Position numbers and translations under genes: made by a program
In this document: positions 2,331 to 52,170 of the stretch, one piece after another
Numbering within the stretch: the stretch's first letter is position 1
Layout of the letters: every line of letters starts with the position of its first letter
DNA from: Candidatus Altimarinota bacterium
GTDB taxonomy: Bacteria > Patescibacteriota > Gracilibacteria > Absconditabacterales > Absconditicoccaceae
NCBI GenBank assembly: GCA_021734475.1
Contig: JAIPIU010000001.1
Location: 62,001 to 126,000, forward strand
Length of the DNA: 64,000 nt
Direction: 5' to 3'
The notes under the pieces: generated by a model
What the model was told of the DNA's origin: nothing
The model's input: the letters and a program-made list of their open reading frames with translations, nothing else
Database searches by the model: none

Positions 2331-4313
2331 TTAAAAACTCTCAATTTTAATTCATGGATAATAATATTTTAATATTTCTTCGTATGTCCAACCATTCTTT
2401 GCCCAATATTCTGCTCCTTTTCAGCTCATTCCCACTCCATGTCACAAGAAGCTACTACATTTAGTTATGTCCATATTGCTTATTAGATACGGAGTATCCC
2501 TCCATCACCGTTTTTCTTCAGCAGAATACGTAAATCACATAGAACAATTGAAATAGGGTAGTATAGGTATATATCAATCAAAAGTAATTATTTTATTTTC
2601 TGTTTTTTTCAAAGCCATAAACCATCTTTTCAAAGTTATTTCCAATCCAGCTCAAACATATTTTTGAAAAACGTCGGCATCATCTACGGCATTATAATCT
2701 GCTCAGATTGGTATGTTGGGATGAGTATTTTTCATATAAAATAAAGCATAAGTTTTTGATACTAGAGACATAACTATATTTTTTTCTATACTTTCTCAAT
2801 CATTAGTTTCTACTATACCTTTCATATAGTCAGAAAATGGAAGATCATTTATTACAACAAATTTATTCAATTCATTTCATTTTTTATCTTTTACTTTATC
2901 TTTTTTTATAATAATATTTCATCTAAATATATTCCATGGTTTTTTAAAATAAGATTTTCTATCATAATTTTTGAATACAATCAAGTCTTTTGTAGTATTT
3001 ATAATTAATTCATTTCAATTATATTTATTTCATCATATCTCTAATATTAAATTTGAGTCTCAATCTATAGATATGTTTCATCATCTATCAGAATATATTT
3101 TTCAATCTAACTGAAATTTACAAATTCATAGACATGAGATATCATATTTATTAAAATCAAAACTTAGTTCATATAATAATACTTTTATATTTTCTTTACT
3201 TAGACTTTTGGCTTCTTCTTTTGATATTTTGTATTCAATTTTATTTATGCTATTTTTACTTTTCTTAAATCAGTATTTTTCTTTCATTTCTTCTATAGAG
3301 TTTTTCATCTGTTCACGTAATGAAACTACTCATTCATATGTTAATTTTGATTTTACTTGTCATCTATTGCTAATATAATCTACTAGTTTATCAGAAATTT
3401 TTTTAACTTCACTTATATTAGTATTCAATAAATCATAGGTATTTAGTCATTTATAAACTTCATCTCTTATATATGGAAATATATTATATAAATTTTTTCC
3501 TGGGCATGCGGTGCTTCATGCGTCTTTATGTCAAGCTATACTAAATCATTTTTGACTTTCAATATACGGAAAATCTTTTATATCTTTATGATAAGTGGTC
3601 GTATATTTAGGATTTATTTTATATTTTTTAGCCAATACTGTAGATAATCTTATTAACGATTCAATAGCCTTTGCACTTGGTTTTTCTATTTCAAAATTTC
3701 CCATCAAAGATATACCTATACTAGGAGAATTATTCCATTTTGCATGAGCTCATATTACTCATTCTCATCAAGCTCTTCATTCATATATATTACCCATAGG
3801 ATCTATCAAAAAATTGTATCATATATCTCACCATCATCTTTTTACTGTGTGATATTTATATATGTCTTGTATTTCTTTGATTGCGTCATCTTTTGTTAAT
3901 ATACCAGAAGAAATTTTAGCTGTATGATGTATTATTATTTTTGTTTTATTATTTTTGATACTTTCAGTCCATCTCAAAGAGTTTTCTCCAAAATATCTAT
4001 TATACGAATCTATATTTACATCATTATAATAATAAGCCAATAAATAATTATTAGCAACTTCTTTTATATATTCACTTATTATAGCATTACTGTCTACCTC
4101 TTTTGTTTCATTTATATATTGTTCTTTATTTGTATCTGTAGGAGTATTGATTTTAACTGGAGATAGTCTCAATGATTCATCAGCTCCTCGTTGTGTACGA
4201 GATATAATATTTATTCATTGCAAGTTCCAATCTCAAGCAAATCAATAAGAAAAAAACAAAGCTCCCAATAAAATTACAAAAAAATACTTAACAAAATTCA
4301 GATTTAATTTCAT
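2331..4313 (-). CDS. N-acetylmuramoyl-L-alanine amidase fused to SpoIID/LytB domain
   Basis: This 660-residue exported protein joins two peptidoglycan hydrolase modules. An N-terminal membrane or signal segment (about 8-26) is followed by an Amidase_2/PGRP domain: RTQWGADES near residue 42, IIIHHTA at about 127-132 (zinc His), GWGDIGYNFLID, and GHKDAGSTACPG near 265 with the second zinc His and Cys. The C-terminal 200 residues are SpoIID-like, with EEKWGWRDTPYL and a closing GHGVGMS-GAEYWAKNG-YEEIL-YYYPG block. Amidases strip stem peptides; SpoIID-type domains act as glycan-cleaving enzymes on the stripped strands. The Trp in RTQWGADES is CGA and the first Trp of EEKWGW is CGG. Start is the first ATG ahead of the signal segment. 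Head of a three-gene envelope operon. Confidence 0.9.
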
Positions 4314-4459
4314 ATATAAATATTTATAATACAAAAAAACAATTCAACTATAACTTATATATAAATGTATATAAAATTCAAAGGATAAAAAAGTTGAAAC
4401 TGATAAGCAGAAAACTAATAATAATTCTGTATATTTAATATTTAATCTTATATTATTCA

Positions 4460-5392
4460 ATGTTTACTCACTTACACTGACATAGCACATTTTCTTTTCT
4501 TGATGCTATAGGTAAACCCAAACATATAGTATCAAGAGCAAAACAACTCTGAATGGAAGCTATAGCTATCACAGATTTTAATTGAATGTATGGTTCTATA
4601 AATTTTTATTTAACAGCAAATGAAGAAAATATCAAACCAATAATATGAGTAGAAATATGATTTGTCTTAGATGTTGAATCAGTATCCAACCCCAAGGCAA
4701 TATGAAATATAGTGTTGATAGCAAAAAATAACGAATGATATCATTCACTTATGGAATTAACATCATTTGCAAACCAAGAATGAATAAAGAATAAACCAAA
4801 AATAGATATATCTATACTAAAACAAAAATCTGATTGATTGATAGCTATTATATGATGAGAAGATTCTTTTATTTGAAAAATGTTAACAAATTGAGAATCG
4901 GAAGATAGAGTAGTAGAGGTAATCAGAATTATAAAAGATATTTTATGAAAAGAAAATGTCTATCTAGAAATGATTGCTCAGGACGAAAATATTTTAAATG
5001 ATACTCAAAAAATAAATCATAATATATTATCTTTTTCTAAAGAGTTATGATTAGATTGCGTTGTGAATAATAATTATTTTTATCCTAGTCAAGAAGAAAA
5101 AGCTGCTCGAGAAATGGCTCTAGCTATCAAAGATGGAAATAAAATGTATGAATCTAATAGAAGAAAACCAAAATGAGCTTATCATATAATGTCCCAAGAA
5201 GAAATAGAAAATGTTATGTTAGCAAATTGATACAAAGACTCTCAAATACAAGACTGGATTTTTAATAATGAAAAAATAGCAGAGTCTATAAATTATGAAA
5301 TTAAACTTTGACAATATCTATTTCCAAATTATGAAACTCCAGAAGATATAAAAAACATCTATGAAGAAAATAAAGATCAATTAATTCAATAA
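4460..5392 (+). CDS. Stand-alone PHP-domain protein resembling the DnaE N-terminus, metal site degenerate
   Basis: The 310-residue protein aligns by eye with only the N-terminal PHP part of bacterial DNA polymerase III alpha: FTHLHGHSTFSFLDA at residue 2, then AIAITDFNGMYGS, IIGVEIGFV and a late NNNYFYPSQEEKAAREMALAI block. No polymerase palm or fingers follow; the gene ends at a TAA abutting the convergent gene. The first H-x-H is kept, but the canonical TDHGN His is Phe (TDFNG) and the TND-H of the last motif is NNNYF, so metal binding looks impaired. It could be a structural remnant, a polymerase accessory, or another PHP phosphoesterase. The end is a proper stop, so I do not call it truncated by mutation. 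Confidence 0.75.
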
Positions 5393-18557: not shown

Positions 18558-19073
18558 ATGAATAAACCAGAAATGTTAAATTGTCCCTATTGGGATGATG
18601 AACTAAGATTAGCTTCACAAGAGGCTTCAAATTTCGAAGATTTGGCTGTAGTTGCCGGTAAGATTCTTATTAAAATGTATAAAGAAAATAAGGATATTAT
18701 TATGATTGCAGGCCCTATGTGGTCAGGTCCTCTCGGACCCAAAGAGAACCTCAAAAGATTTGAAGCTGCTACCAAAGCTTTCGTCAATGCCGGATATCAT
18801 GTATTTCGTCAAATGCCTTTTCAGGAGGCAATGAAAAGAATTCAAAAAGAACATGGATATGAGTATCCGAATAAAGAACTTTTGGAGGAGTTTTATGGCG
18901 TAGTTTTCGCTACAGGACTCATTTCCAAAATTGCTTTTATTCCCGGATATTCTCATTCTTTTGGAGCTTTGTGGGAATATGACGAATGTCCAAAACATGG
19001 TATTGTACGAAAGGTTTTACCCAAAAATTATCTCAAAACCCTTGCTTCCGGCAAGAAGATCAGAGGTCTTTAA
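18558..19073 (+). CDS. Hypothetical protein, probably horizontally acquired
   Basis: The 171-residue protein is open without any TGA; all 13 or so glycines are GGN, and base use is visibly richer in G/C than in its neighbours. Its core (IIMIAGPMWSGP, AATKAFVNAGYHVFRQMPF, IAFIPGYSHSFGALWEYDE) resembles the Rossmann-like nucleoside 2-deoxyribosyltransferase/DUF4406 fold: an N-terminal I-AGP loop, a late 'D/PGW..S.Ga..E' helix start. I would not name it further. A CGA codon in GIV[CGA]KVLPKNY would be read as Trp by the host but was probably Arg in the donor. It has its own promoter and strong terminator, so it is a self-contained unit. Confidence 0.8.
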   Translation: MNKPEMLNCPYWDDELRLASQEASNFEDLAVVAGKILIKMYKENKDIIMIAGPMWSGPLGPKENLKRFEAATKAFVNAGYHVFRQMPFQEAMKRIQKEHGYEYPNKELLEEFYGVVFATGLISKIAFIPGYSHSFGALWEYDECPKHGIVRKVLPKNYLKTLASGKKIRGL

Positions 19074-29651: not shown

Positions 29652-31877
<2,226 letters not shown>

Positions 31878-32415: not shown

Positions 32416-32988
32416 ATGCCCCAACTCTTCGCAAACAAATATCGCACCCAATCCATTAGACTTCCAGAGCGAGATTATTCATCTTGATGATGATATTTTT
32501 GCACCATCTGCGTAGATAAACATCAACGTTTATTGTGAGAGATTATAGATTGAAAAATAAATTTAAGTGAGATATGAAAAATAGTAGAGCAGTGTCGATT
32601 TGATATTACAAACCATTTTCCCAATATTGAATTAGATGAATACGTCATCATGCCAAATCATATTCATGGTATTTTGTTTTTACATGAAAAAAATAATCAA
32701 CCCGTAGAGACACACTACAGTGTGTCTCCAAATAATGAGACACGCCATGGCATGTCTCTACACAAAATAAACCAATTTTGAAAAATGCATAAAAATTCGA
32801 TTTCCCTTATCATTAATCAATTCAAATGATCCGTCACAAGACAAACAAATAAATTAAATTTAAATTTCCATCGACAATCCTGATTCTACGAACACGTGAT
32901 CCGTAACAATCAAGACTTGCAAAGAATTCAAGAATATATACAAAATAATACATGTAAACGACAAAATGATGAATACTATATATCCTAA
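32416..32988 (+). CDS. REP-associated tyrosine transposase (RAYT, Y1/HUH)
   Basis: The 190-residue protein matches RAYT enzymes: RLPEWDYSSGGGYFCTICV at the N-terminus, the HUH metal motif VIMPNHIHGILFL (about 76-88), FHWQSGFYEHVIRN, and the catalytic Tyr in QRIQEYIQNN near residue 170. Family Trp positions (EWDYS, QCWFDI, FHWQ, CKWQND) are all CGA. RAYTs cut and join at palindromic REP hairpins and are linked to their spread. The gene itself carries a double hairpin insertion at 32704-32762, in frame, encoding about 20 residues between the HUH motif and the QF segment. It looks intact and so possibly active on the repeats of this genome. Confidence 0.9.
32704..32762. repeat. Tandem hairpins inserted in the RAYT gene
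   Basis: AGACACACT-ACAG-TGTGTCT and GAGACAcGCC-ATGGC-aTGTCTC sit side by side, with outer arms GTAGAGACA / TGTCTCTAC. The insertion preserves the reading frame. Confidence 0.85.
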
Positions 32989-33026: not shown

Positions 33027-34313
33027 ATGCCCCTATCAAATACCCCTCCAAAATGAACAAGCGATCGATTCCCCAAAGAATTTACCGTCCGTAAATATAT
33101 TTTTGATACACGAAGAAATGTATGTGAAAAATTTTGATATGAAGAATATTTGTGACCATTAGTAGAAAATGCTGATATTCGGAGAGCAAAATCTTGAGAA
33201 GATGTATGATGAAGTGAACTGACATTGATCACAGATAGAACTGGTAAGGTTAGTGATTTAGCACTTAGACCAGAGATGACACCAAGCGTTACTCGTATGG
33301 TAAGTAGAATATATGCAGAGACTCCCAAACCAATCAGATTTTTTTCCATAGCAAATTTTTATCGTAACGAAAAACCTCAGAGATGAAGAAATAGAGAGTT
33401 TTGGCAACTAAATATAGATATGTTTGGTAGTGAGTCTCTATATGCAGACACAGAAATATTACAAGTAGCTATAGAAATTATGTTATCATTTCAAGCTCCC
33501 AAAAATTCTCGACGTTTGTATCTAAATTCTCGTCAGATTATAGATTATATTATTGACCAAGAGTTATGATTAGTCGCAGATAAGAAAACTGAAATAGTAA
33601 GGCTGATGGATAAGCGAGAAAAATTAAAAAAAGAAGATTTTGTCTTGATGCTAAAAGATCATTGATTAATTGAAGATCAAATAAACAAAATCATTACTTA
33701 TCTATGAATAAATAATGTTAATGAACTTGTTAAACACTTTCCAAATATAAACACTAATAAATGATATACTGATTTAGTTAATATATTTACTAAATTATCT
33801 TCTTTGTGATACGATTGATGCTTTGAGTTTAAATGAAGCCTTATTAGATGATTTGATTATTATGATGGTGTTGTTTTTGAAGTTTTTGATATGCATCCAG
33901 AAAATAGACGCGCAATGTTTGGAGGTTGACGTTACAATTGATTAGCTGAAATATTTGGTTCCAAATCTTTTCCTGCAGTATGATTTGCACCATGAGACGA
34001 AGCAATGAAATTATTTTTGGAAAGTCGATGAATGATAGAAAATATAGTTGATGATCAAAAAAAAGAATTATATTACATACCAATGCTTTCAGAATTATAT
34101 TATGATATATATTATAAATTAGCAAAGACATTGAGAGATTCTTGATCTCTAGTCCAACAATGATTAGATGTTCAGGGACTTGGTAAAGCATTACAATATG
34201 CAGATAAAAAATGAATACCATATGTTGTTATTTTTTGAGAATGAGAAAAACAAGCTGGAATCTACAAAATCAAAAATATGAAAACATGAGAAGAGCAATC
34301 TATTTCAATCTAG
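33027..34313 (+). CDS. hisS: Histidyl-tRNA synthetase
   Basis: The 428-residue protein is a class II HisRS: GTSDWFPKEF and YIFDTWRNVCEKFGYEEY at the N-terminus (both Trp are CGA), motif 2 [30 protein letters not shown], HisA motif LIRGFDYYDGVVFEV, motif 3 GGGRYNGLAEIFG and PAVGFAPGDEA. The C-terminal anticodon-binding domain is present (YYIPMLSELYYDIYYKLAKTLRDSG). It forms His-tRNA(His). It lies 38 bases after the RAYT gene and 25 bases before a small membrane protein gene. Confidence 0.95.
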
Positions 34314-39899: not shown

Positions 39900-41324
39900 T
39901 TAGAATCTGATTTCATCTGCTTTTATTCTCCATTGTTTCATACTATCTCTATCTCTTATAGTTACAGTTCCGTCTTGTATACTTTGATTGTCTATGGTGA
40001 TACAGTACGGAGTTCAGATTTCATCCTGTCTGCGATAACATTTTCATATATTACCACTATCGTCAAACTCACACATATAATCCTGACTTAATTTATCAAA
40101 AATTTCTTTAGCCATATTTACTTGTTCTTCATCTTTTTTAACCAAGGGTATTACAGCAAATTTTATTGGTGCAATATTTTTATTGAATCTAGCAACTACT
40201 CTTGTTTGTTCATTTCAGTTTGCATCGCTATATTTTTCTTCATCATAAGCATCTATCATAGCTGTAAGTATTGCTCTAGTCAAACCCCGGCTTGGTTCTA
40301 TACAATGTGGTACATATCTTTTGCCAGATTGAGGATCAGAATATTGTAAATCTTTTCAGCTAAATTTTATATGTTGATTGAGATCATAGTCTGTTCTATA
40401 TGCAATACCTTGTAATTCTCATCGTCCTCGTGGAAATTTATATTCTACATCACATGTTCACTTACTATAAAAACTTAGTTCATCTTTATCATGATCTCTA
40501 AATCTTAGTTTTTGCTCTTTGATTCATATTTCGTTTATCCATCGTTCTTTACTTTGTTTTTTCCATTCTTCAAAACACTCTAATCAAATCTTTTCATCAT
40601 TTTCTACGAAATATTCTATCTCCATCTGATAAAATTCCCTCACTCTAAACATAAAATTTCCTGGAGTGATTTCATTTCTAAAAGCTTTTCATATCTGGGC
40701 AATACCAAATGGTATCCTAGATCTAGTAGTATCCAATATATTTTTGAAATTTACAAATATTCCTTGTGCAGTTTCAGGTCTAAGATAGATATCAGTACCT
40801 TGTCATTCGATAGTTCCTTGTTCGGTTTTAAACATTAGATTAAATTGCTTTGGTTCTGTCCAATCAAAAGATCAACATTTTGGACATTTGATTTTAAATT
40901 GATTTATAAATTCTGTCTGTTGCTCAAAAGATCGTGCTCATACTGCTATATTATCAACTTTGATTCTTTCATTTATTTGTTCCAGATTTAAGTTATTTTT
41001 TTCTATATATTCTTCTATTAGTTGATCTGCTCTCAATCTACTTTTACATTTTTTACAATCTATCAAAGGATCTGAAAATCATCAAACATGACCTGAAGCT
41101 TCCCGTACTTTGGGATTCATAAGTATCTGTGAATCTAGTCAAATTATATCATTTCTTTTTTGTACAAAAAACTTCCATCGATTATTTTCGATATTTTTTT
41201 TAACTTCTACACCATATGGTCATAAATCTCGGGCATTAGCCAATCATCCATAAATATCACTACCAGGATATGCAAATCATCTTCTTTTTGCCCACGCAAC
41301 AATATTATCCAAACTAAACGTCAT
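39900..41324 (-). CDS. glyS: Glycyl-tRNA synthetase (alpha2 type)
   Basis: The 474-residue class II enzyme is the dimeric GlyRS type. Visible blocks: [54 protein letters not shown], paired zinc-type Cys (CKKC, CPKC), motif 2 [40 protein letters not shown] and CIEPSWGLTR. Trp in NAWDLG and GWGEL is CGA; Trp in KVWEASG and EPSWG is CGG. GGN-reading and UGA-reading glycine tRNAs should both be charged by this enzyme, so it is central to the recoding. A C-terminal anticodon domain is present ([21 protein letters not shown]). No nearby tRNA gene is seen. Confidence 0.95.
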
Positions 41325-41360
41325 AAATCTATAATTAAAAAATTAAAAGCCTTTTTCCCC

Positions 41361-41394
41361 GTCATTCCGGCGAGATTATTTTGCAGCCGGAATC
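41361..41394. repeat. Dispersed palindromic repeat, copy 7
   Basis: GTCATTCCGGC ... GCAGCCGGAATCC upstream of glyS. Confidence 0.85.
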
Positions 41395-41405
41395 CAAACT
41401 AAGTG

Positions 41406-41424
41406 AGTCCCGCTTCAGCGGGAT
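41406..41424. repeat. GC hairpin
   Basis: TCCCGCT-TC-AGCGGGA perfect short inverted repeat directly after repeat copy 7; role unknown. Confidence 0.6.
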
Positions 41425-41536
41425 AAAAAAATCAATTACAAATATATACTAATAATAAAATTCTCTCCACTTTCAATTCGTTTTAACCTTTTAACGCTTC
41501 AATGTTTTAAAATCTAATAAAAAAGCTTAATAAAAT

Positions 41537-41565
41537 TTGACAAATAGACTTAGCTAGATTATAAT
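41537..41565 (+). promoter_or_regulatory. Full-consensus promoter of structured RNA 1
   Basis: TTGACA (41537-41542), 17 bases, TATAAT (41560-41565). Both hexamers and spacing are ideal, and no ORF follows for 800 bases. Confidence 0.8.
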
Positions 41566-41571
41566 AGTTAA

Positions 41572-41990
41572 ATAGATCTTTCTCCAATAATATTAAACAG
41601 TATAGATTGTTTAATGCTATAGGAAGACGGTCATTGTAAAAACAACTCACCATTGCAATTTTGCATTAGAGTTTATGTTAAACAGTATATTGGATAAAAT
41701 ATCGCTGTCTGGCTTTTATCGTATACAACAAATGCTACAAAAACAAAAAATAAAATGAGCCTAATCTATTTATTATTTAATTAGCATACAAATTGTTGTT
41801 TATGATCAGATTGATTATATTTTGTTTTAACGTATTTGTTGTAGCATAGGTAAGTATATTTACAAGCCGACAATATACCGTTTTAGGCTTACGGATCCCT
41901 ATTGTTCCAAATTGATACAAAATTTATCTTTTGGTATGGTAAAAAGGTATACTAGTGTGTTGTCTCTCTGACCTCTTCCGAACCCTAAAA
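41572..41990 (+). ncRNA. Candidate structured RNA 1 (about 415 nt)
   Basis: The gene-free region behind a consensus promoter has extensive pairing. A 5' hairpin (ATTAAAC 41592-41598 / GTTTAAT 41609-41615) is followed by a closing stem GGAAGAcGGTCA (41622-41633) with TGACCTCTTCC (41969-41979). Inside, GTATATTG (41685-41692) pairs with CAATATAC (41871-41878), nested with TGTCtGGCTT (41706-41715) and AAGCCGACA (41864-41872). ACAACAAAT and ATGCTACA can each pair with the TATTTGTTGTAGCAT segment, as alternatives. Length suits RNase P RNA or tmRNA, but I cannot find the conserved RNase P core or a tRNA-like end with CCA. Boundaries are estimates. Confidence 0.6.
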
Positions 41991-41996
41991 AAAGTA

Positions 41997-42024
41997 TTGA
42001 CAAATATTGATTTGTGGTTATACT
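41997..42024 (+). promoter_or_regulatory. Promoter of structured RNA 2
   Basis: TTGACA (41997-42002), 16 bases, TATACT (42019-42024). The AAAAAGTATTGACAAATATT block is shared exactly with the promoter at 57675. Confidence 0.75.
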
Positions 42025-42030
42025 ATCGAC

Positions 42031-42217
42031 GTCATCTTCTCTCAATAAAATATATTAGAATTTTAAAAATCTAACATATATTATAGGAAGAAGGTATCCT
42101 AGCTTTGTACAGATTGTTTACAATCTATCTGGTAATCCACTCCAAAGGATTATAAAGTTCATCACCAGCTTGGTTTTGGCACCAGTATTACAGCGCTAGC
42201 CTCTTCCTTTTTTTGTG
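42031..42217 (+). ncRNA. Candidate structured RNA 2 (about 185 nt) with own terminator
   Basis: Organised like RNA 1: a 5' hairpin (TTAGA/TCTAA), then TATAGGAAGAaGG (from 42082) closing with CCTCTTCCT (42200-42208), followed at once by seven T. Inside are AGATTG-TTTA-CAATCT and TAATCC/GGATTA hairpins, the latter nested within CTGGT/ACCAG, and CTAGC/GCTAG just inside the closing stem. No ORF of note. Together with its promoter this strongly suggests a stable small RNA. It does not show the SRP GGAAGC-type loop or a 6S-like single rod. Confidence 0.65.
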
Positions 42218-42293
42218 CCTTTATTTTTGGCCTTCTATTCATAAGTTTTTATATCTTAATAAATAGTATATTCTAAAACACTTATAAAAACAG

Positions 42294-42323
42294 ACTCTCC
42301 TTTTACAAAAGGAGAGTTTTCTT
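42294..42323 (+). terminator. Intrinsic terminator
   Basis: ACTCTCC / GGAGAGT stem with a TTTTACAAAA loop followed by TTTTC; between RNA 2 and the HIT gene, possibly a backup stop for the RNA transcripts. Confidence 0.75.
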
Positions 42324-42384
42324 ATTGAAAATTTTTTTCAAAACCTTAGATATAATTTATGATTTATAATTTACGATAATTTAA

Positions 42385-42846
42385 ATGTCTGATTGTATCT
42401 TTTGTAAAATTACAACATGAGAAATTCCATCAATAAAGTTGCGAGAAGATGATAATTTCTTAGCAATATTAGATGTGTTTCCAAATACTAAATGAATGAC
42501 ATTGGTTATGCCAAAAAATCATTATGATTCAGATTTATTTGAAATAGATGATCAAGAATTTTATACCAAATATCTACTAGCTAGCAAAAAGGTAGTTGAA
42601 ATACTCAAAAAATGATTATGAGTAAATAGAGTAGCTATGGTAATGGAATGAATGTGAGTAGATCATGCTCATATCAAATTATATCCATTACATTGAGTTT
42701 GACCAGAATGGGAAGCTCATCGAGCGAAACAAGAAATATATTTTGATCAATATGAATGATATGTTTCTACTCAATTATGACCAAAAGCAAGTCCAGAAGA
42801 TTTACAAAAAATTGCTGATGAAATTAAATCCAAAAACTGACTATAA
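42385..42846 (+). CDS. HIT-family protein with altered HxHxH motif
   Basis: The 153-residue protein starts CIFCKITTGEIPSIKLREDD, typical of HIT nucleotide hydrolases, and continues ILDVFPNTKGMTLVMPKNHY. The His triad reads DHAHIKLYPLHG at about residues 93-104: the first two His are kept, the third is Lys. The nucleophile (middle His) remains, so some AMP-lysine or Ap4A-type hydrolysis is possible. The tail (YFDQYEGYVSTQLGPKASPEDL) fits the bacterial branch of the family. It precedes aspS by 22 bases. Confidence 0.9.
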
Positions 42847-42868
42847 TTTTTAAATTTTAATAATATAG

Positions 42869-44641
42869 ATGTTGCGTACACATACATGTTGAGAATTAAC
42901 TTCAAAAAATGATTGATCAAATGTTACATTATCATGATGGGTAAATAAAACTAGAAATTTATGATGAATGCTATTTGTAGATCTTAGGGATAGATACGGT
43001 ATAACTCAGATAGTATTTGATCCTGCAAACAAAGATTTATTTTCACAAGCAGAAAATATTAAATCAGAATATGTAATCAAAGTTGATTGAAAAGTTAGTC
43101 TTAGACCATCAGATCAGACAAATAAAGATATGACTACATGAGAGATAGAAATACATCCACTATCACTAGAAATACTTTCAAAATCTGATGTATTACCTTT
43201 TCCTATAGTAGATAACCCAAATACAAGTGAAGAAAATAGATTTAAATATAGATTTTTGGACCTTAGAAGAAGACCAGTATTGAAAAATATAGAATTTAGA
43301 ACAAAAATGCTAAGTTTTACCAGAGAGTGGTTTTCCAAAAGATGATTTTTTGATATACAGACTCCAATTTTTACTGTATCTTCTCCAGAGTGAGCTAGAG
43401 ATTATCTAATTCCATCTAGGGTCAATCCATGAAAATTTTATGCTTTACCACAGGCTCCTCAACAATACAAACAATTACTTATGGTTTGATGAATAGATAA
43501 ATATTTTCAGATAGCTCCATGTTTTCGTGATGAAGATCCTAGAGCTGATAGACATAGTTGTGAATTCTACCAAGTAGATTGTGAAATGTCTTTTGTAGAT
43601 CAGGAAGACATTTATACTACTGTAGAATGATTTATGAGAGATATAACTAGAGATTTAGTGCCTCATAAAAAAATCACAACAGATTTTGTTAGAATGAAGT
43701 ATGTAGATGCTATAGATAAATATTGAACAGATAAACCTGATCTTAGATTTGGTATGGAATTTGTAGATCTTACAAATATTTTCAAGGATTCGGGTTTTTC
43801 AGTTTTCAAAGATGTCTCCAATTCAAATAAATGAACAATCAAAGCAATAAATCTAAAAAATAAAAATCTATCTAGAAAAGAGATAGATGAACTTACAAAA
43901 GTTGCACAAGAAGCAAAAGCAAAATGATTGGCCTATATTTCTTATACAGATGAATGACCACAAAGTAGTATCGTGAAATTTTTTAATGAACAAGAATTAT
44001 CAAATATAAAAGATATTATGAATGCAGAGATTTGAGATACAGTACTTATAATAGCCGATCAATATGATACAGCCACCAAAGCATTAAATAAAGTTAGATT
44101 AGCTATTAGAGATAAATATAATTTGGTAAACAAAGATGATTTGTGTTTTGTTTGGATAGAAGATTTTCCTATGTTCGAAAAAAATGAAGAAACTTGAAAA
44201 TTAGATTTTGCACATAATCCATTCTCTTTTATCAAATGATGAGTAGAAGCTTTTGATACTCTAGATCCTATGGAATTGGAAACTACTCAATATGATCTAA
44301 TTATAAATTGATATGAATCTTTATCTTGATCTATTCGTAATCATAGTCCAGAAATTTTATTAAGAGTTTTTGAAGCAGTATGAATGTGAGAAAAAGAAAT
44401 CAAAGATAAATTTGGAGCAATGTATGATGCATTCAAATATTGACCACCTCCACATGGATGATTTGCAATCTGATTTGATAGATTTATGATGATATTATTA
44501 GATGAAGAAAATATACGTGAATGTTATGCTTTCCCAAAATCCGGTAGAGCAGAAGATGTAATGATGTGAGCTCCAGGCACTATAGATCTAGAACAATTAA
44601 ATGAATTATTTATAAAAGTAGATTTACCCAAAGATAAATAG
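42869..44641 (+). CDS. aspS: Aspartyl-tRNA synthetase
   Basis: The 590-residue bacterial-type AspRS has the OB fold ([34 protein letters not shown]), motif 1 [18 protein letters not shown], motif 2 [31 protein letters not shown], the bacterial GAD insertion (about 290-410), GGSIR-like [12 protein letters not shown] and motif 3 [16 protein letters not shown] followed by [11 protein letters not shown]. Many core glycines are TGA. Length equals the family. Spacing to the LtaS-GDPD gene is 6 bases. Confidence 0.96.
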
Positions 44642-44647
44642 CTTTTT

Positions 44648-47128
44648 ATGAATATAAACAAAAAGATAAAAAGAATATACAAAAAAATTATCAACTACAT
44701 AAAATATTTTTTCCTATTATTTAAATTCAGATTACATCCTGCAGCAATAGCTTTTCTTTTTGCTATATTTTTGATTATCAAACAATTTGTATTTTTTCAT
44801 GCATATCAGGCTACGATTAGATGATTTTACAATTATTTCTTATTTTTCATAAACGACTTATTACTTTTGTCATTTGTATTTCTATTGTGATATATCACTC
44901 TTAGCAGCAAGAAATTAATTATAAAAATTATATCTAATCTTGTAAATATTTTTATAATGATCACATTTTTAATAGATATTTTTACTACTAAATTTTTTCA
45001 AAGTAGATTGTCATTGTTTGAACTTAGTTGATTCTTGGATATAGTAAATTCTTGAGTAACATGATCTTATATGTGATTTACTCTAGTATCTATATTATTA
45101 TTTATCTTGATAAATCATGTTTTACTTAGATATTTCAAGTTCCCCAAAAATAGAAAATTAATTCTATCTGTGATCATACTCTTCATATCTATATCTTTTA
45201 CTATTAGTAAGTTTTCTAGTTATAATAACATCAGACTTCAAAAAAATATTATAGCATTCAATATAACTAATATAGCTTCAAACAATACTGATAATTTACA
45301 AACAGTATCAAAAGATAGGGAAAAATATGAAGATTATTTTCATATTGTTAAATGAAAAAATAAAAACCTGAACCTAATCCTACTTTTTGCAGAATCATTT
45401 TCTGCTGCTGATTCACTTAGAGCTGGATGAATAAAAGATAACTTTCCATATTTTGACAAAATACAATCTCAATGAATCACATTTACAAATTTTATTTCCA
45501 ATTGATGTACATCTGACAATGCTCATATAGCTGTATTCCAATGAATAGAGCCATTATATTGTCCAGATAACAAAGATCTAAAAGCCTATTTTAAATACAA
45601 AAGCTACACAGATCCACTTCCTGTATTTTTCAATAATTTGTGATACAAAACCATTTTTCTTAGCTCAGCTGGTCTAGGATTTTTGGATCAGAGATGATAT
45701 CTCTTATGATTAAATTTTCAGGAAGTTATATGAGAAGAACTATTCAAAGATAAAAAGAAATATACTTTTGATTCAGCTCCTGATTACTATTTATACGAAG
45801 AAGCTATCAAAACTGTATCCAATCAAACTTGAAATTTCTTTTTGTGACTACAAACTATTTCATCACATACACCATATTACACACCCTATGGAGATTCATC
45901 ACAGGATATGTTTCAGTACGTTGATAGAAATTTATATGCATTCTACCAAAAGCTCAAAAGAATCTGATTTTTTGATAATGGAATTTTGATTATAGTATCT
46001 GATCATAGAAAAATGCAACCACTTACAAAAGATGAAATAGATGTATTTGGAAAGATAGCATACGCTAAAATATTAGCAACTGTAGTAGGTTCGTGAATCA
46101 AACCCAATACTTTCAATAATAATATTGTTCAACATGTAGATTTTTTTAGTTCTATCAAAAACTATCGATGAAGTGGAAATATTACTATATCATCGATATA
46201 CAATGATCCAATATTAAATACAGTCAATAGAGATCGATGAATTACATATTGTGCGTATTTTGATAATAAGTACTGAGCTATTACTCAGTCGTGAGATTTT
46301 TATAAATTTAGAAATAATTCACAGAGCTTATCATGAAGTGAATTTCAAAAATATATAAATGCATTCCAAATATTTCAGTCAGATTTGTTTTCATGAAATT
46401 TGGATATATTAAAAGATACAGTAATACTTTGACATAGATGAGCATCAGCTCAGGCTCCAGAGAATACATTTCAAGCTTTTCAATTAGCAAAAGATTATTG
46501 AGCAGATTGAGTAGAGTTTGATATATCTTATACCCAAGACAATGTAAATATCATAGAACATTGACCAAATCTAGTAAATACAAACTGTGGTGCAGACAAA
46601 CAGATCAAAGATTATACTTTGGATTATATCAAAAAAAATTGTAGATTCAAAAACTGAGAAAAACCAATGACATTAGAAGAAATACTAAGTATTATCAAAG
46701 ATATGTTTGATTATTATTATCTTGAAATAAAAGTTTATGACACGTCCAAAGCAGCTCAACAAACATTAGATGCTATTCAAACAGTAGAAAAACTCTGACT
46801 TCAAGACAAGGTAATATTTATTTCATATGATCCTACTGCTAATCATATCATATGATCTTACAACTGAATTATCGCTTGATGGGATGACTACAATACATGA
46901 TCAATAAATATAATCAAAAATTTTCCTCATCCATATTATTTATTAGAGAAGTGATATATCAACCAAGAAGTAGTAGATAGAATTGATTTAATTTGAAAAA
47001 AATTAGTAACTTATACAGTCAATGACCCATTAGAATTTGAAAAATTATACAAACTGTGAGTTAGGGTTTTTATGACGGACAATATACCATTAATAAAAAA
47101 TAAACTTTTGGAAATTATAAAAGAATAG
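44648..47128 (+). CDS. LtaS-like lipoteichoic acid synthase fused to glycerophosphodiester phosphodiesterase
   Basis: The 826-residue protein has five N-terminal membrane helices (about 30-195), then a sulfatase-fold domain like LtaS: LLFAESFSAADS (metal Glu, about 246), NGCTSDNAH with the nucleophile Thr (about 287), TISSHTPYY and IIVSDHRKM (Asp-His, about 451). From about residue 594 a GDPD domain begins: VILGHRGASAQAPENTFQAF, ADGVEFDISYTQD, IIEHG, YLEIKV and a late TYTVNDP. LtaS polymerises glycerol phosphate from phosphatidylglycerol; GDPD cleaves glycerophosphodiesters. One chain could thus make and trim the same polymer. Start is 6 bases after aspS. The H-R-x-A and D/E metal residues of GDPD look intact. 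Confidence 0.9.
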
Positions 47129-47148
47129 ATTTTAAATATTTTCTAATT

Positions 47149-47850
47149 ATGTTAAATAAACTAAAATCTGACTTAAAAAAACTCTCTGTTAATAAAAAGG
47201 TGGAAGTGTTTTCAAGGTTTTTCAAAACATGAAAAGGGGAGTATGGCCAGTGAGATAAATTTCTATGAATTTCTGTCCCATTACAAAGGCAGTTAGCAAA
47301 ACAGTATTTATGATTAGATTTTGATGATTTACAAAATTTACTAAATTCAGATATTCATGAATATAGATTGGTAGCATTACTTATACTAGTCCAAAAATAT
47401 TCTAAATGAGACGATAAGCTAAAATCAAAAGTTTTTAAATTCTATCTAAAAAACACCAAAAGAGTTAATAATCGAGATTTAGTAGATTTATCATCTTATC
47501 ATATAGTTTGAAATCATTTATTAGAGTCAGATAAATCTATTCTTTATAAATTAGCTAAATCAAACAATCTTCGAGAAAAAAGAATATCAATAGTCTCTAC
47601 ATATACATTCATCAAAAATCATCAATTTCAAGATACTTTTCAAATTGCAGAAATTTTATTAAATGATACTCATGATCTAATTCACAAAGCTGTTTGATGG
47701 ATGCTTAGAGAAGCGGGTAATAGAGATCAAATAGCAGAAGAAAAATTTCTAAAAATTCATTATAAAAATATGCCTAGAACTATGCTTAGATATGCAATAG
47801 AAAAATTTGAAGAATCCAAAAGACAAAAATATCTCAAATGATTAATTTAG
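47149..47850 (+). CDS. DNA alkylation repair protein (AlkD-like HEAT fold)
   Basis: The 233-residue helical protein matches AlkD-type 3-methyladenine glycosylases: [29 protein letters not shown], then the [20 protein letters not shown] block where active members have W-x-x-VD, repeated helix pairs, and [16 protein letters not shown] near the end. These enzymes use HEAT-like repeats to grip DNA and excise bulky alkylated bases. Where AlkD has VxxWDLVD, here the Trp is Arg/Asn (NNRDLVD), so catalytic details may differ. Confidence 0.85.
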
Positions 47851-48169
47851 ATATATCTTATTTATAGCAATATATACGTTTTTATTTAGCTACAAAGATT
47901 ATACACATAATAAATCAAGTCAAAATGAAATGGCGGATCATTTTGACTAGAGTTTTTGAATACTTTTGGGTCGATGCCAAAAGTATTTTGTCGTCTGGGG
48001 ACAAAACCCCAGTAAACGTTAAATATTAAAATAGATTCTCCATATGGACAAATTCCAATAATAAGGAGACAAGATTGCTTTGCTATTCTCAATGATTTTA
48101 TAAAAAATTTATTAGCAATTTAAATCTAAATTTATAAAGTAAAATCAGATTTATTTTTTATGTATTTCA
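47851..48169. other. Gene-free stretch with three consecutive hairpins
   Basis: No convincing ORF. GTCAAAATGA/TCATTTTGAC (about 47919-47946), AATACTTTTGG/CCAAAAGTATT (about 47959-47987) and CTGGGG/CCCCAG (47995-48012) follow each other, richer in G/C than the surroundings. AGATTGCTTTGCTATTCTC near 48072 looks like a decayed copy of the repeat found inside ExoIII. The 68-residue frame on the minus strand runs through these hairpins and is not credible as a gene. Confidence 0.65.
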
Positions 48170-48781
48170 ATGAAAAAAATATTATTTATATTGGTAATAT
48201 TTTCAGTATTATTTCTATCTGCATGTAATAAACAATCTACCACCAATATACAAAGTTCAGAAGAATGAGCTACATGTAGTCTAAATGATCCAGAACCAAC
48301 ATGTTCTACTGATACAGTCCTAGATAATTCAAACTTTAAAATAACAACTACAGCATTTCAAAGTGGATGAAAAATTCCTGGAACATATTCTTGTATGTGA
48401 AAAAATATAAATCCTGATTTAGAAATATCTTGAGCTCCAAAATGAACACAAAGCTTCGCTCTCATAGTTCACGATCCAGATGCATCTAAATGAGATCGAA
48501 TACATCGAATGCTACGAAATATTCCAGCTTGATCTACAAAAATAGAACAATGAAATACTCCAGCTTGATCAACAATATGAGAAAATTCTCGATGAAAAGC
48601 TGAATATCGTTGACCATGTCCACCTAGTTGAACTCATAGATATTATTTCAAATTATATTCTCTAGATACTAATTATTGAGATTTACCATCACAGATGACA
48701 TTAGAGGAGTTTGAAAATATTACCAAACCACACATACTTTGAACTACAGAAATTATGTGAACTTATAGCTCAGTTAAATAG
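48170..48781 (+). CDS. PEBP / YbhB-family lipoprotein
   Basis: The 203-residue protein has a lipoprotein signal (KKILFILVIFSVLFLSAC, lipobox LSAC) and a phosphatidylethanolamine-binding-protein fold: [68 protein letters not shown]. The family binds small anionic ligands; its bacterial role is unclear. The Trp residues in DWIHW, LWNIPA and NSWGK are all CGA, lining up with the well-known HW..WNIP signature. Probably tethered to the outer face of the membrane. Confidence 0.92.
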
Positions 48782-48811
48782 TTTTTTATTTATTATATAT
48801 ACCCAGATACA

Positions 48812-49039
48812 ATGGCTAAACAAAACAAAGTTATGAAACTAATTATTATTATCACATTCGCTGTATTTATATTATCTACGCTACTTATGTGAGCATTACA
48901 GTTTTTTGATATGCAAGAAAAAATCGACACTACTCAAACATGAGAAAATCTAACTTGAGTTAGTATAGAAACATGAATAAATCTTAGTTGAGATATCTTG
49001 GATTCTACTTGAACTGAATTAACTTGAGAATCTAACTAA
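48812..49039 (+). CDS. Small signal-anchored protein with Thr/Gly-rich tail
   Basis: The 75-residue protein has one membrane helix (KLIIIITFAVFILSTLLMGALQFF) and a Thr/Gly/Asp tail with TGENLTG, ETGINLSG and TGTELTGES, similar in style to the DTLTG repeats of the surface protein at 59 kb. Unknown function; likely surface-exposed. Confidence 0.65.
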
Positions 49040-49063
49040 TATTTTAATTTATTAATCATTTAT

Positions 49064-49999
49064 ATGAAATTAATAGTTGATCATAGTTCTAGATTTGCAA
49101 AAATGCGTGCTCATACAGCCACACATTTGCTACATTCTCAGTTAGTAAAAATTTTTCCAAATACCAAACAGGAATGAAGTCAGGTTGATAGCGATTATTT
49201 GAGATTTGATTTTAGTTCAGATAGATTACTTAGTCCAGACGAAATATCTGAAATAGAGAAGAATATAAATCAGATTATTTATCTAGCTTGTGATATTGAT
49301 GTACAAGAGATGACTATCGATGAAGCATCCAAACTAGGGGCTAAAATGTTTTTTGAAGATAAATACGGTGATACCGTTCGTGTAGTTCAGATTACTAGTC
49401 ATTCAGAGCATAGCGAAGAATCTAGTTTAAAATGAAGTATCTCTATAGAACTTTGCTGATGAACCCATGTAGCTAATACCAAAGATATCTGATGTTTTAC
49501 TATTATCTGACAAGAAGCAGTAGCTTCTGGTATCAAGAGAATTACAGCTCTTACATGACCAAAAGTATTAGAAAAAATCCAAGAAGTTCAGTCTATTTTA
49601 GATATGACAGTCAATAAATTATGAATCAAAACAGCTACTCAGCTCCAAGATAAATTAGACAAAACTCTTAGAGAATATGAAGAAATGCAATCCAAGATAG
49701 AATCTTTAGAAACACAAATGATTGTTAGTACACTCAAAACTATTGAATCAAAATCAGATAAAAATTTCGATAAAATAATCCAATTAAATTCTGATTTAGA
49801 ATTCAAAAATATATCCTTTCATGCAAAATCAATTTTCTCAACATGAAATATTTTAATTTTCAATAATCAGTGAAATTTTCTTATTCTGTCAGACTCTAAA
49901 CAGGCAAAAGAACTAACAACTAAAGTTTGACTCAAATGATGATGAAACGAAAATATGGTGCAGGGTAGAGACCAAAAAGTTTTAGAAATTTATGCATAA
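49064..49999 (+). CDS. Alanyl-tRNA editing protein: AlaRS editing plus C-Ala region
   Basis: The 311-residue protein corresponds to the back part of alanyl-tRNA synthetase: RAHTATHLLHSQLVKIF (HxxxH zinc/editing motif, about 16-20), GSQVDSDYLRFDFS, then [37 protein letters not shown], a coiled coil (about 185-225) and a C-terminal GLKGGGNENMVQGR block like DHHA1/C-Ala. It should hydrolyse Ser- or Gly-tRNA(Ala). No aminoacylation domain is attached; either AlaRS is split in this genome or this is an AlaX-like factor. An in-frame palindromic repeat inserts about nine residues (SHSEHSEESS) just before the CGGTH strand. Confidence 0.88.
49398..49423. repeat. Palindromic repeat inside the editing-protein gene
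   Basis: GTCATTCAGAGCATAGCGAAGAATCT, the well-known GTCATTCTGAGC-type bacterial repeat, in frame and translated as SHSEHSEES. Confidence 0.75.
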
Positions 50000-50001
50000 A
50001 T

Positions 50002-50379
50002 ATGATTAAATGTAACTATATAATTCTATCAGAATGAATTACTCTAGATCAAATTACATGACTAGCTTCAGTTCATAATGCTTTAGAAAAAATTTCAACA
50101 TCTAATTTTCCTTTTGTAGTAAATAAAATTGCTATGCTATCATTTTTCGAGAGAAAACCAAATGATCCATATACTTATGAAATAGAGCGAAAATTATTCA
50201 ATAATGATACGTTATTAAAAAATGAAAAAGTTAATGTAGATTTCAAAGATAAATTAAAACATAAATGGATAAATATTTTTCAATGAATCGAATTAAAAGA
50301 AGATTGAGAACTTAGACTATCCGTATATCATGATTGAAAAGAAATAAATAGATATTCTATAGAGGTAGAAAAGAAATAA
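50002..50379 (+). CDS. Hypothetical protein (DUF6941-like)
   Basis: The 125-residue protein resembles small beta-rich proteins of the DUF6941 type: an N-terminal CNYIILSEGITLDQITGLASVHNALEKI, a FPFVVNKIAMLSFFERK strand and a C-terminal WINIFQGIELKEDGELRLSVYHDGKEI repeat. The function of that family is unknown. The start codon is 2 bases after the preceding stop, so it is translationally close to the editing protein. Confidence 0.6.
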
Positions 50380-50402
50380 TTTAGAAATTATTTTGATTAT
50401 AT

Positions 50403-51278
50403 ATGAAAATCGCTTCACGAAACGTAAATTGAATTAGAGCAGTACTTGCTAAATGATTTTATGATCGAGTCAAAAAAAATGATCGAGATATAATCTGTCT
50501 TCAAGAGACCAAAGCTTTTGAGTCCCAATTACCTGCAGAATTTCGTTTTCATATGAATGATTACAACCGAGTACGACATGCTGGTACCAAGCCTTGATAT
50601 GCTGGTACAGCGACATTATATAAAAAATCCTTAAATCTGATTTCATCCAAATCTCATTTCGCAGATTTAGAACATTTCCATGAAGACGGCAGAGTAGTAG
50701 AGACTAAATTTTCTTTTTCTAGTCATTGCGAGGAGCATAGCGACGCGGCAATCTTAGAAAAAGAAAATAATAAGATTGCTTCGCATAGCTCGCAATGACA
50801 GTGATTCACTCTTCTAAATATCTATTTTCCCAATTGAAACAATAGATCTGACTGAACAGAAATGCTTAGCTACAAGCTTAAATTTTACGAACATTTCATT
50901 CATTATATAAATACTCTTAGATCCAATTGAGAAGATATAATTACAACATGAGATTTCAATATTTGTCATCGTCCTATCGATATCGCTAGACCCAAAGAAA
51001 ATGAAAATTCAATCTGATTTCTTCCTATCGAAAGAGCTGAAATGGATAAATTATTGGAAAACTGATATACTGATGTATTTCGTCATTTTAACCCTGATTT
51101 AAGTGATCAATATACTCGATGGTCTTATCGTGCATGAGCTAGACCTAGAAACGTATGACGGAGACTAGACTATTTTCGAGTATCTCAAAATATTATTCCA
51201 ATGATAAAAAATATAATTCACCAAACTTCAGTAGAATGATCCGATCATTGTCCTATTAGTTTAGAATTAAGCTTATAA
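50403..51278 (+). CDS. xthA: Exodeoxyribonuclease III / AP endonuclease
   Basis: The 291-residue EEP nuclease has MKIASWNVNGIRA, ICLQETKA (metal Glu), [54 protein letters not shown] and a closing GSDHCPIS. It nicks DNA 5' of abasic sites in base-excision repair. The Trp in SWNVNG and the first Trp of TWW are CGA and that of GWRLDYF is CGG, all at positions nearly invariant in the family. A 78-base palindromic repeat (50722-50799) interrupts the gene in frame and adds about 26 residues at about 107-132 between two core strands. Confidence 0.95.
50722..50799. repeat. Long palindromic repeat inside xthA
   Basis: GTCATTGCGAG..GCATAGCGACGCGGCAATCT and AAGATTGCTTCGCATAGCTCGCAATGAC form inverted arms around a short A-rich centre. 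It keeps the frame and is translated. Confidence 0.9.
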
Positions 51279-51627: not shown

Positions 51628-52170
51628 TTAATTTTCAGATCTTTTAATCAAAGCAAATACCGAATAATTTATTATATCCTGATATCCAGCTTCTACTCCT
51701 TCAGAAACGGATGTCTTACCATTATTATTTTCAATTTGCTTGATCCTGAGTAGTTTCATCAATATAAGATCAGTAAATGACATTTCTCTCATCTGTCTCC
51801 AAGCTTCGCCATAGTCATGATTTTTTGCTTCCAAAAGATCAGAAACTTTTTTAGCTTCTTGATGATAGAGTTGTACAATATCATTTTTACTAACATCAGT
51901 TTTTAGATCAGGATTTGAAATTTTGATCAAAGCCATGATACAGTAATTGATTATACCGATATATTCACTATCGACACCATCATCAATTTTCTGTTCCTTT
52001 AACTCCTGAATAGTTCTTATCCGATTTGCTTTTATAAAGATCTGATCTGTCATAGATGGAAGTCTCATAATTAGCCAAGGACTGCCATAATCTTTGATTT
52101 TTTCAATAAAGATTGATAAGCATCTGGTATTTATTATCTCCCACCATTGTTCATAAGTTTTTGTTGCCAT
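51628..52170 (-). CDS. DUF1599 (nucleotide-modification-associated) tandem-domain protein, probably from Bacteroidota
   Basis: The 180-residue protein contains two copies of the DUF1599 unit: KIKDYGSPWLIMRLPSMTDQIFIKANRI and KNHDYGEAWRQMREMSFTDLILMKLLRIKQIEN, each followed by a GVDSEYIGIINYCI or GVEAGYQDIINYSVFALIK segment. The two-copy arrangement and wording are typical of Bacteroidota. All seven glycines are GGN. Codon 50 (52021-52023) is CGG where the family has Arg (KAxRIRT), so the gene still carries the donor code. The family is tied to modified-nucleotide metabolism in phage contexts. Confidence 0.88.
   Translation of the reverse strand: MATKTYEQWWEIINTRCLSIFIEKIKDYGSPWLIMRLPSMTDQIFIKANRIRTIQELKEQKIDDGVDSEYIGIINYCIMALIKISNPDLKTDVSKNDIVQLYHQEAKKVSDLLEAKNHDYGEAWRQMREMSFTDLILMKLLRIKQIENNNGKTSVSEGVEAGYQDIINYSVFALIKRSEN
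52144..52164. repeat. 21-bp direct repeat, copy B
   Basis: Lies within codons 3-9 of the DUF1599 gene; identical to 51604-51624, 540 bases away. Confidence 0.8.

Follow-up and report, generated by a model that had tools for sequence, protein, structure and literature searches.

A genetic code in which UGA is read as Gly and, beside it, CGA and CGG are read as Trp was predicted computationally for Absconditabacteria (Shulgina and Eddy, 2021; PMC8629427), and a 2026 paper repeats this prediction for Absconditabacterales (PMC13092985); nearly all other organisms read these three codons otherwise. Phages of Gracilibacteria/Absconditabacteria that are free of UGA are, in turn, thought to retain access to standard-code hosts (PMC10746230). 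Here, we analyse a 64,000-nucleotide stretch of DNA (the window; positions 62001-126000 of contig C3, GC content 27%) from the 1.17-Mb assembly G000, within an analysed sequence of ~684 kb of G000 and ~660 kb of its congener G070, a separate species of the same genus. The organism is a tiny, host-dependent bacterium and, by its glycyl-tRNA synthetase (GlyRS), which is 73-78% identical to those of its closest relatives (genomes named SR1, Absconditabacteria or UBA5124), it is an Absconditabacterium (SR1). A preliminary description of the window, which rightly mentioned a computational proposal of CGA/CGG to Trp for Absconditabacterales, read UGA as Gly and CGA/CGG as Trp. Our results uphold this double reassignment for the ordinary genes (hereafter native genes) but not as a genome-wide rule, since a conserved minority of the genes adheres to the standard code. 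Whereas the double reassignment itself was already known, we did not find a standard-code set of chromosomal genes in these bacteria reported in the literature, and in importance this second class outweighs the reassignment.

Computed gene by gene (604 kb of G000, genes with at least 10 Gly codons), the share of UGA among Gly codons is bimodal: 23 genes have a share of exactly 0, none falls between 0 and 0.10, and most genes exceed 0.3, with the mode at 0.7-0.8. The UGA-free class makes up ~6-8% of the scorable genes, encodes Trp by UGG only and carries CGA/CGG at conserved Arg positions. In the class ThyA, the CGA/CGG at residue 35 corresponds to Arg in 5/5 homologs (a PDB comparison was also used), while in PurB and PurC such codons stand at the Arg of the STVLRNLG and VRGY motifs, respectively. 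Pfam scoring favours Arg in 11/12 leading domains of class genes, among them PRPP (phosphoribosyl pyrophosphate) synthetase, Nudix, acyltransferase, formyltransferase, ASL_C, ThyA, SAICAR synthase, methyltransferase, DUF1599 and radical SAM; only Lyase_1 of PurB leans slightly the opposite way. Moreover, one class gene (L037, 11692-12312) and its G070 ortholog (L306, 3910-4578) share a UGA located after the last conserved residues, beyond which the sequences of the two species are unrelated, and another G070 gene (L306, 4601-5188) ends with TGA-TAA where its G000 counterpart ends with TAA. The remaining UGAs in apparently mixed genes lie upstream of the true start. Hence, the class follows the standard code: UGA does not encode Gly and is sometimes a stop, CGA/CGG encode Arg, and UGG is the only Trp codon. 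Its products include ThyA, PurB, PurC, formyltransferase, PRPP synthetase, Nudix and DUF1599 proteins, a FabH-like synthase, PhoH and a weak match to a beta-barrel porin, together with the glycine-lipid acyltransferases GlsB and GlsA, which exceed the cut-offs of Bacteroidota-named NCBIfam models (415 vs 300 and 300 vs 260 bits, respectively); the secreted proteins of the class have signal peptides that appear Bacteroidota-like by eye.

Simple recent transfer was our first reading of the UGA-free genes, and it was overturned by comparing reciprocal best orthologs of G000 and G070, scored only inside the aligned region. Recently transferred genes would be expected to differ in state and divergence between sister species; all 18/18 class pairs were concordant, with native-like divergence. 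The ortholog pairs comprised 184 native-native pairs, 18 that are UGA-free in both species and two native-intermediate ones, with no UGA-free gene facing a native one, and 14/15 class pairs were syntenic, 13 of them with native neighbours. Not a single swap of UGG to CGA/CGG was found in the class against 71 conserved UGG, while the native genes showed 158 against 166 (p=1.3e-18). CGA/CGG faced other Arg codons rather than UGG in a ratio of 10:0 in the class and 2:158 in the native genes (p=1.6e-14). Both of these exchange tests are independent of the UGA rule by which the class was defined. GGA codons of G000 faced UGA in 0/102 cases in the class and in 193/449 in the native genes. Class and native genes are similarly diverged, both at four-fold sites (0.484 vs 0.498) and in median ortholog identity (67.6% vs 69.2%), and their GC content at four-fold sites (GC4) shifted alike between the species (-0.057 vs -0.064). 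The GC4 of the class is partly ameliorated (0.21, compared with 0.134 in native genes), having moved toward the value of each genome. The class is thus conserved between two congeneric species.

The class genes also differ from the native ones in their translation leaders. Adenines at positions -11 to -14, -6 and -3 constitute the initiation signal of Bacteroidota (PMC6847099), and the class leaders are of this type, enriched in A and devoid of Shine-Dalgarno motifs, with the -3 position enriched in G000 and not in G070. At -11/-12/-13, A occurs in 77/77/74% of the class genes of G000 and 88/96/68% of those of G070, compared with 50/36/41% and 45/41/39% of the native genes, the difference at -12 (77 vs 36% and 96 vs 41%) being significant in both species (p=1e-5 and p=2e-8, respectively). 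Shine-Dalgarno motifs are likewise absent from the native genes of both genomes, which have a T-rich (U) tract at -19 to -22, with T at ~60-65% per position. For this clade, such a tract upstream of native genes, without a Shine-Dalgarno motif, is an unusual initiation signal.

We consider it somewhat probable, from codon usage, leaders and gene content, that the class is maintained for reading by a translation system that uses the standard code. This system would most likely belong to a host, or possibly prey, among the Bacteroidota, the phylum to which both the leaders and the gene families of the class point. According to this proposal, the second class would be stably inherited in the standard code, together with its Bacteroidota-type A-rich leaders, and selection would keep its genes readable by the translation system of the putative host or prey, in which the products (thymidylate synthase, purine/PRPP enzymes, glycine-lipid acyltransferases and outer-membrane-like proteins) may act. 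We speculate, more tentatively and at somewhat less than an even chance, that the episymbiont keeps these chromosomal genes in the code and the initiation grammar of its Bacteroidota host, the genes or their messages being translated there. The host-translated genes would then provide the host with nucleotides, glycine lipids and surface proteins, like the metabolic genes carried by phages. A second tRNA set or a release factor 2 (RF2) that would allow standard-code reading in the same cell was looked for and not found.

Several points weigh against maintenance for a standard-code reader. The Bacteroidota promoter (TTTG / TAnnTTTG) is not enriched upstream of class genes as compared to native genes, although this comparison has low power; the in-depth test covers one genus pair; and the class offers few CGA/CGG sites (27 aligned, six of which face neither Arg nor Trp). 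Furthermore, the ThyA of the one-contig relative genome G025 is 89% identical to that of Elizabethkingia and looks recently acquired, indicating that separate acquisitions also occur. This last observation favours the strongest rival, recurrent transfer, in which DNA of a Bacteroidota host would be taken up and the class genes would time and again be gained anew or replaced by host alleles, and hence always be young; in this cell, their CGA/CGG would be misread as Trp or else be tolerated. The Bacteroidota-like families and leaders would fit such a history, as would the GC content of the class, which is above that of native genes (0.35 vs 0.27), and gene acquisition has a precedent in Vampirococcus lugosii, in which 126 genes were acquired by horizontal gene transfer (PMC8080830). 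However, recurrent transfer must explain why the mostly syntenic class pairs are fully concordant, are as diverged as native pairs and show a matching GC4 shift, and the partial amelioration of GC4 also speaks against it. Moreover, the UGA-free ThyA of G000 groups with those of G070, G069, G034 and G027 (99/98 support), i.e., across five genomes of three genera, albeit in a tree with thin Bacteroidota sampling that includes one Bacteroidota ThyA only, which counts among the points against maintenance. We regard recurrent transfer as rather unlikely.

Other features of the ThyA genes should be mentioned. G000 carries a second, UGA-containing ThyA, and in two congeneric genomes (L274, 3342-5279, and L276, 7862-10178) a UGA-free and a UGA-containing ThyA lie nearly adjacent, flanked by IleRS and an acetate kinase-like gene; at these loci, CGG and CGT interchange at one and the same Arg. 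In G050, a ThyA homolog (L284 / L241) is written in the alternative code, with seven UGA codons and CGA/CGG at two positions at which G000 has UGG, so a ThyA gene can be recoded.

Could the UGA-free genes reflect a codon bias, e.g., of strongly expressed genes, with no difference in coding, so that only the known reassignment would matter? Expression-linked bias does appear in G025, in which some ribosomal-protein genes are UGA-free (L334) while other genes use UGA, but this genome offers little power to test UGA avoidance, as UGA accounts for only 0.32 of its Gly codons. A bias concerning UGA cannot account for the absence of UGG/CGR swaps (0 vs 71), the Arg partners of class CGA/CGG, the common UGA stops or the distinct leaders; the DnaK-like gene of G000 contains 34 UGA against 13 GGN codons; and, while the leading Pfam domains of the class favour Arg in all but one case, native genes with informative columns favour Trp. 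On the strength of the swaps, Arg partners, stops and leaders we rejected codon bias, which we deem very improbable. Still less credible is an origin of the UGA-free genes in contaminant or chimeric contig pieces: although contamination of the assembly is estimated at 3.06%, these genes occur singly or in short islands flanked by native genes, at positions that match between two separate assemblies, a synteny which led us to reject this explanation, and a UGA-free ThyA is also present in a one-contig genome.

For the native genes, the double reassignment is supported by a column tally, Pfam scores, codon exchange with relatives and tRNA identity elements. In the tally, five native proteins (GlyRS, ExoIII, HisRS, ValRS and SufB) were aligned to standard-code bacterial homologs, with CGA/CGG masked as X. 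Trp was the majority residue in 14 of the 30 CGA columns (the remainder being L/F/I/A/Y/S/E) and in two of the four CGG columns (the others being L and F); pooled, 16/34 columns were Trp-majority and 0/34 Arg-majority, compared with a Trp majority in 14/22 UGG columns. As the preliminary description had stated, conserved Arg is encoded by CGT, CGC, AGA or AGG, the columns of which are predominantly Arg, and UGA fits Gly, which is the majority residue in 74/104 UGA columns. Reading CGA/CGG as Trp rather than Arg raised the Pfam scores of ExoIII (96.9 vs 70.9 bits), ValRS (279.6 vs 256.3), the SufBD core (258.9 vs 249.9) and a native Nudix protein (48.7 vs 38.3), while TilS showed a slight preference for Arg (129.1 vs 127.6 bits) and the scores of GlyRS were uninformative, its invariant Trp falling outside the scored domains. 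In 11 genomes of the same clade, the codons facing G000 CGA were CGA (139), UGG (89), CGG (17) and AGA (1). In 449 native genes, CGA, CGG and UGG are used 52, 4 and 46 times per 10,000 codons, respectively; hence, more Trp residues are specified by CGA plus CGG than by UGG. The idea that CGA/CGG are still Arg, the alignments of the preliminary description having arisen by chance, is a negligible prospect in spite of TilS, being refuted for native genes by the lack of any Arg-majority column and by the 158 exchanges with UGG between G000 and G070.

The decoding machinery agrees with this reading. Trp-type tRNAs with UCG and CCG anticodons, whose presence had been proposed as a check, are both encoded in G000: the tRNA-UCG (L024, 227-300) has G1:U72, G73 and U20, and the tRNA-CCG (L026, 115-188) has A1:U72, G73 and U20, i.e., the traits of the Absconditabacteria code (G73, no A20, A/G1:U72). 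The ordinary tRNA Trp-CCA has A1:U72 and G73, whereas the tRNA-Arg species (GCG, UCU and CCU) have A73 and, by our D-loop reading, also A20. Relatives of the tRNA-UCG are present in 34/49 genomes of the family. One TrpRS gene and one TyrRS gene were found and, given the identity elements, the UCG and CCG tRNAs are probably charged with Trp by TrpRS. A Gly-type tRNA-UCA (L016, 238-311; G1:C72, C2:G71, G3:C70, U73) would decode UGA, so that ordinary genes would be read by these three tRNAs. The only PCRF-domain release factor in the assembly carries a PxT (PET) motif, characteristic of RF1, and no RF2 was found among the PCRF-domain factors of G000, the assembly being ~97% complete; with RF1 as the only RF1/RF2-type factor found, UGA is free. 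By our reading, the outermost pair of the anticodon stem of the tRNA-UCG is an A-C mismatch, leaving a 4-bp stem; this tRNA also has G37 and is identical in G070. Further loci, L013:188-261 and L029:182-254, hold a second tRNA-Asn(GUU), the body of which is unusual, and a tRNA-like gene whose anticodon is ambiguous.

Within the window, all six codons cited for ExoIII, GlyRS and the amidase-like protein are CGA or CGG at the expected place and in frame. In ExoIII (50403..51278, + strand), CGA 50418, CGA 51117 and CGG 51159 correspond to Trp in 8/8 standard-code homolog segments, and in GlyRS (39900..41324, - strand), CGA 41229-41231 and CGG 41103-41105 correspond to Trp in 15/17 and 17/17 segments, respectively. 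The amidase-like gene (2331..4460, - strand; CGA 4188-4190) contains 38 UGA codons. For the PEBP family protein (48170..48781, + strand; four CGA), the claimed Trp gains 17 bits over Arg (136.5 vs 119.5). The claim of invariant Trp in HisRS (33027..34313, + strand) was overstated: at D-x-FP and T-x-R the standard-code homologs show I/L/V and A/L/I, and its CGA/CGG columns are mostly hydrophobic, with no Arg and no invariant Trp. A LysRS-like protein with a class II D/K/N core (29652..31877, + strand; four CGA) is likewise native. Two class members lie inside the window. The gene at 18558..19073 (+ strand; 13 Gly codons, no UGA) has a UGA-free, syntenic G070 ortholog (78% identity), in which its sole CGA faces CGG. 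The DUF1599 gene at 51628..52170 (- strand) contains no UGA, four UGG and one CGG, in K-A-N-[CGG]-I-R-T, and scores 192.3 bits with Arg vs 186.2 with Trp; its protein has distant homologs in two Chryseobacterium phages. ExoIII (50720-50810) and an AlaRS-like gene (~49400-49430) contain similar in-frame inserts (SSHCEEHSDAAI..., SHSEHSEESS), which resemble translated repetitive palindromic elements; a RAYT-like Y1 transposase is located at 32416-32988.

If the class is under selection, codon meaning would mark where a gene is to be read, and the host-directed genes of an uncultured parasite could be recognised from sequence alone, with the host phylum indicated; if it reflects constant transfer, these genomes would provide a measure of the pace at which genes adjust to a new code. 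Either way, the current annotation of Arg/Trp sites in class genes is wrong.

Compared to known systems, G000 is an advanced example of the Absconditabacteria code (PMC8629427), which extends NCBI table 25: it shares the clade, the three reassigned codons, UCG/CCG tRNAs with G73 and no A20, low GC content, Arg encoded mainly by AGA, and a Gly-type tRNA-UCA. G000 confirms the published computational prediction and, since CGA is a major Trp codon here, makes it testable by proteomics; CGA is commoner than in that survey (52 per 10,000 codons in all native open reading frames vs <37 in Pfam-aligned codons, an approximate comparison). The conserved standard-code gene set sets G000 apart from the code as published. 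Code-11-compatible phages of Gracilibacteria/Absconditabacteria (PMC10746230) similarly lack in-frame UGA though tied to cells with UGA=Gly; however, those are phage genomes, while the class consists of chromosomal metabolic and envelope genes amid native ones, and its CGA/CGG codons show an Arg reading, beyond mere dual-code compatibility. Code-partitioned phages with stop-recoded late genes (reviewed in PMC10746230) also combine two gene classes and two codes in one genome, but they switch in time within one host cell, whereas here both classes reside on the chromosome of a cell, for which neither RF2 nor a second tRNA set was found. Finally, the class resembles ordinary horizontal gene transfer from Bacteroidota in its gene families, leaders and GC content, and differs from it in that two species retain the class state at orthologous loci, which have diverged to the same degree as native ones.

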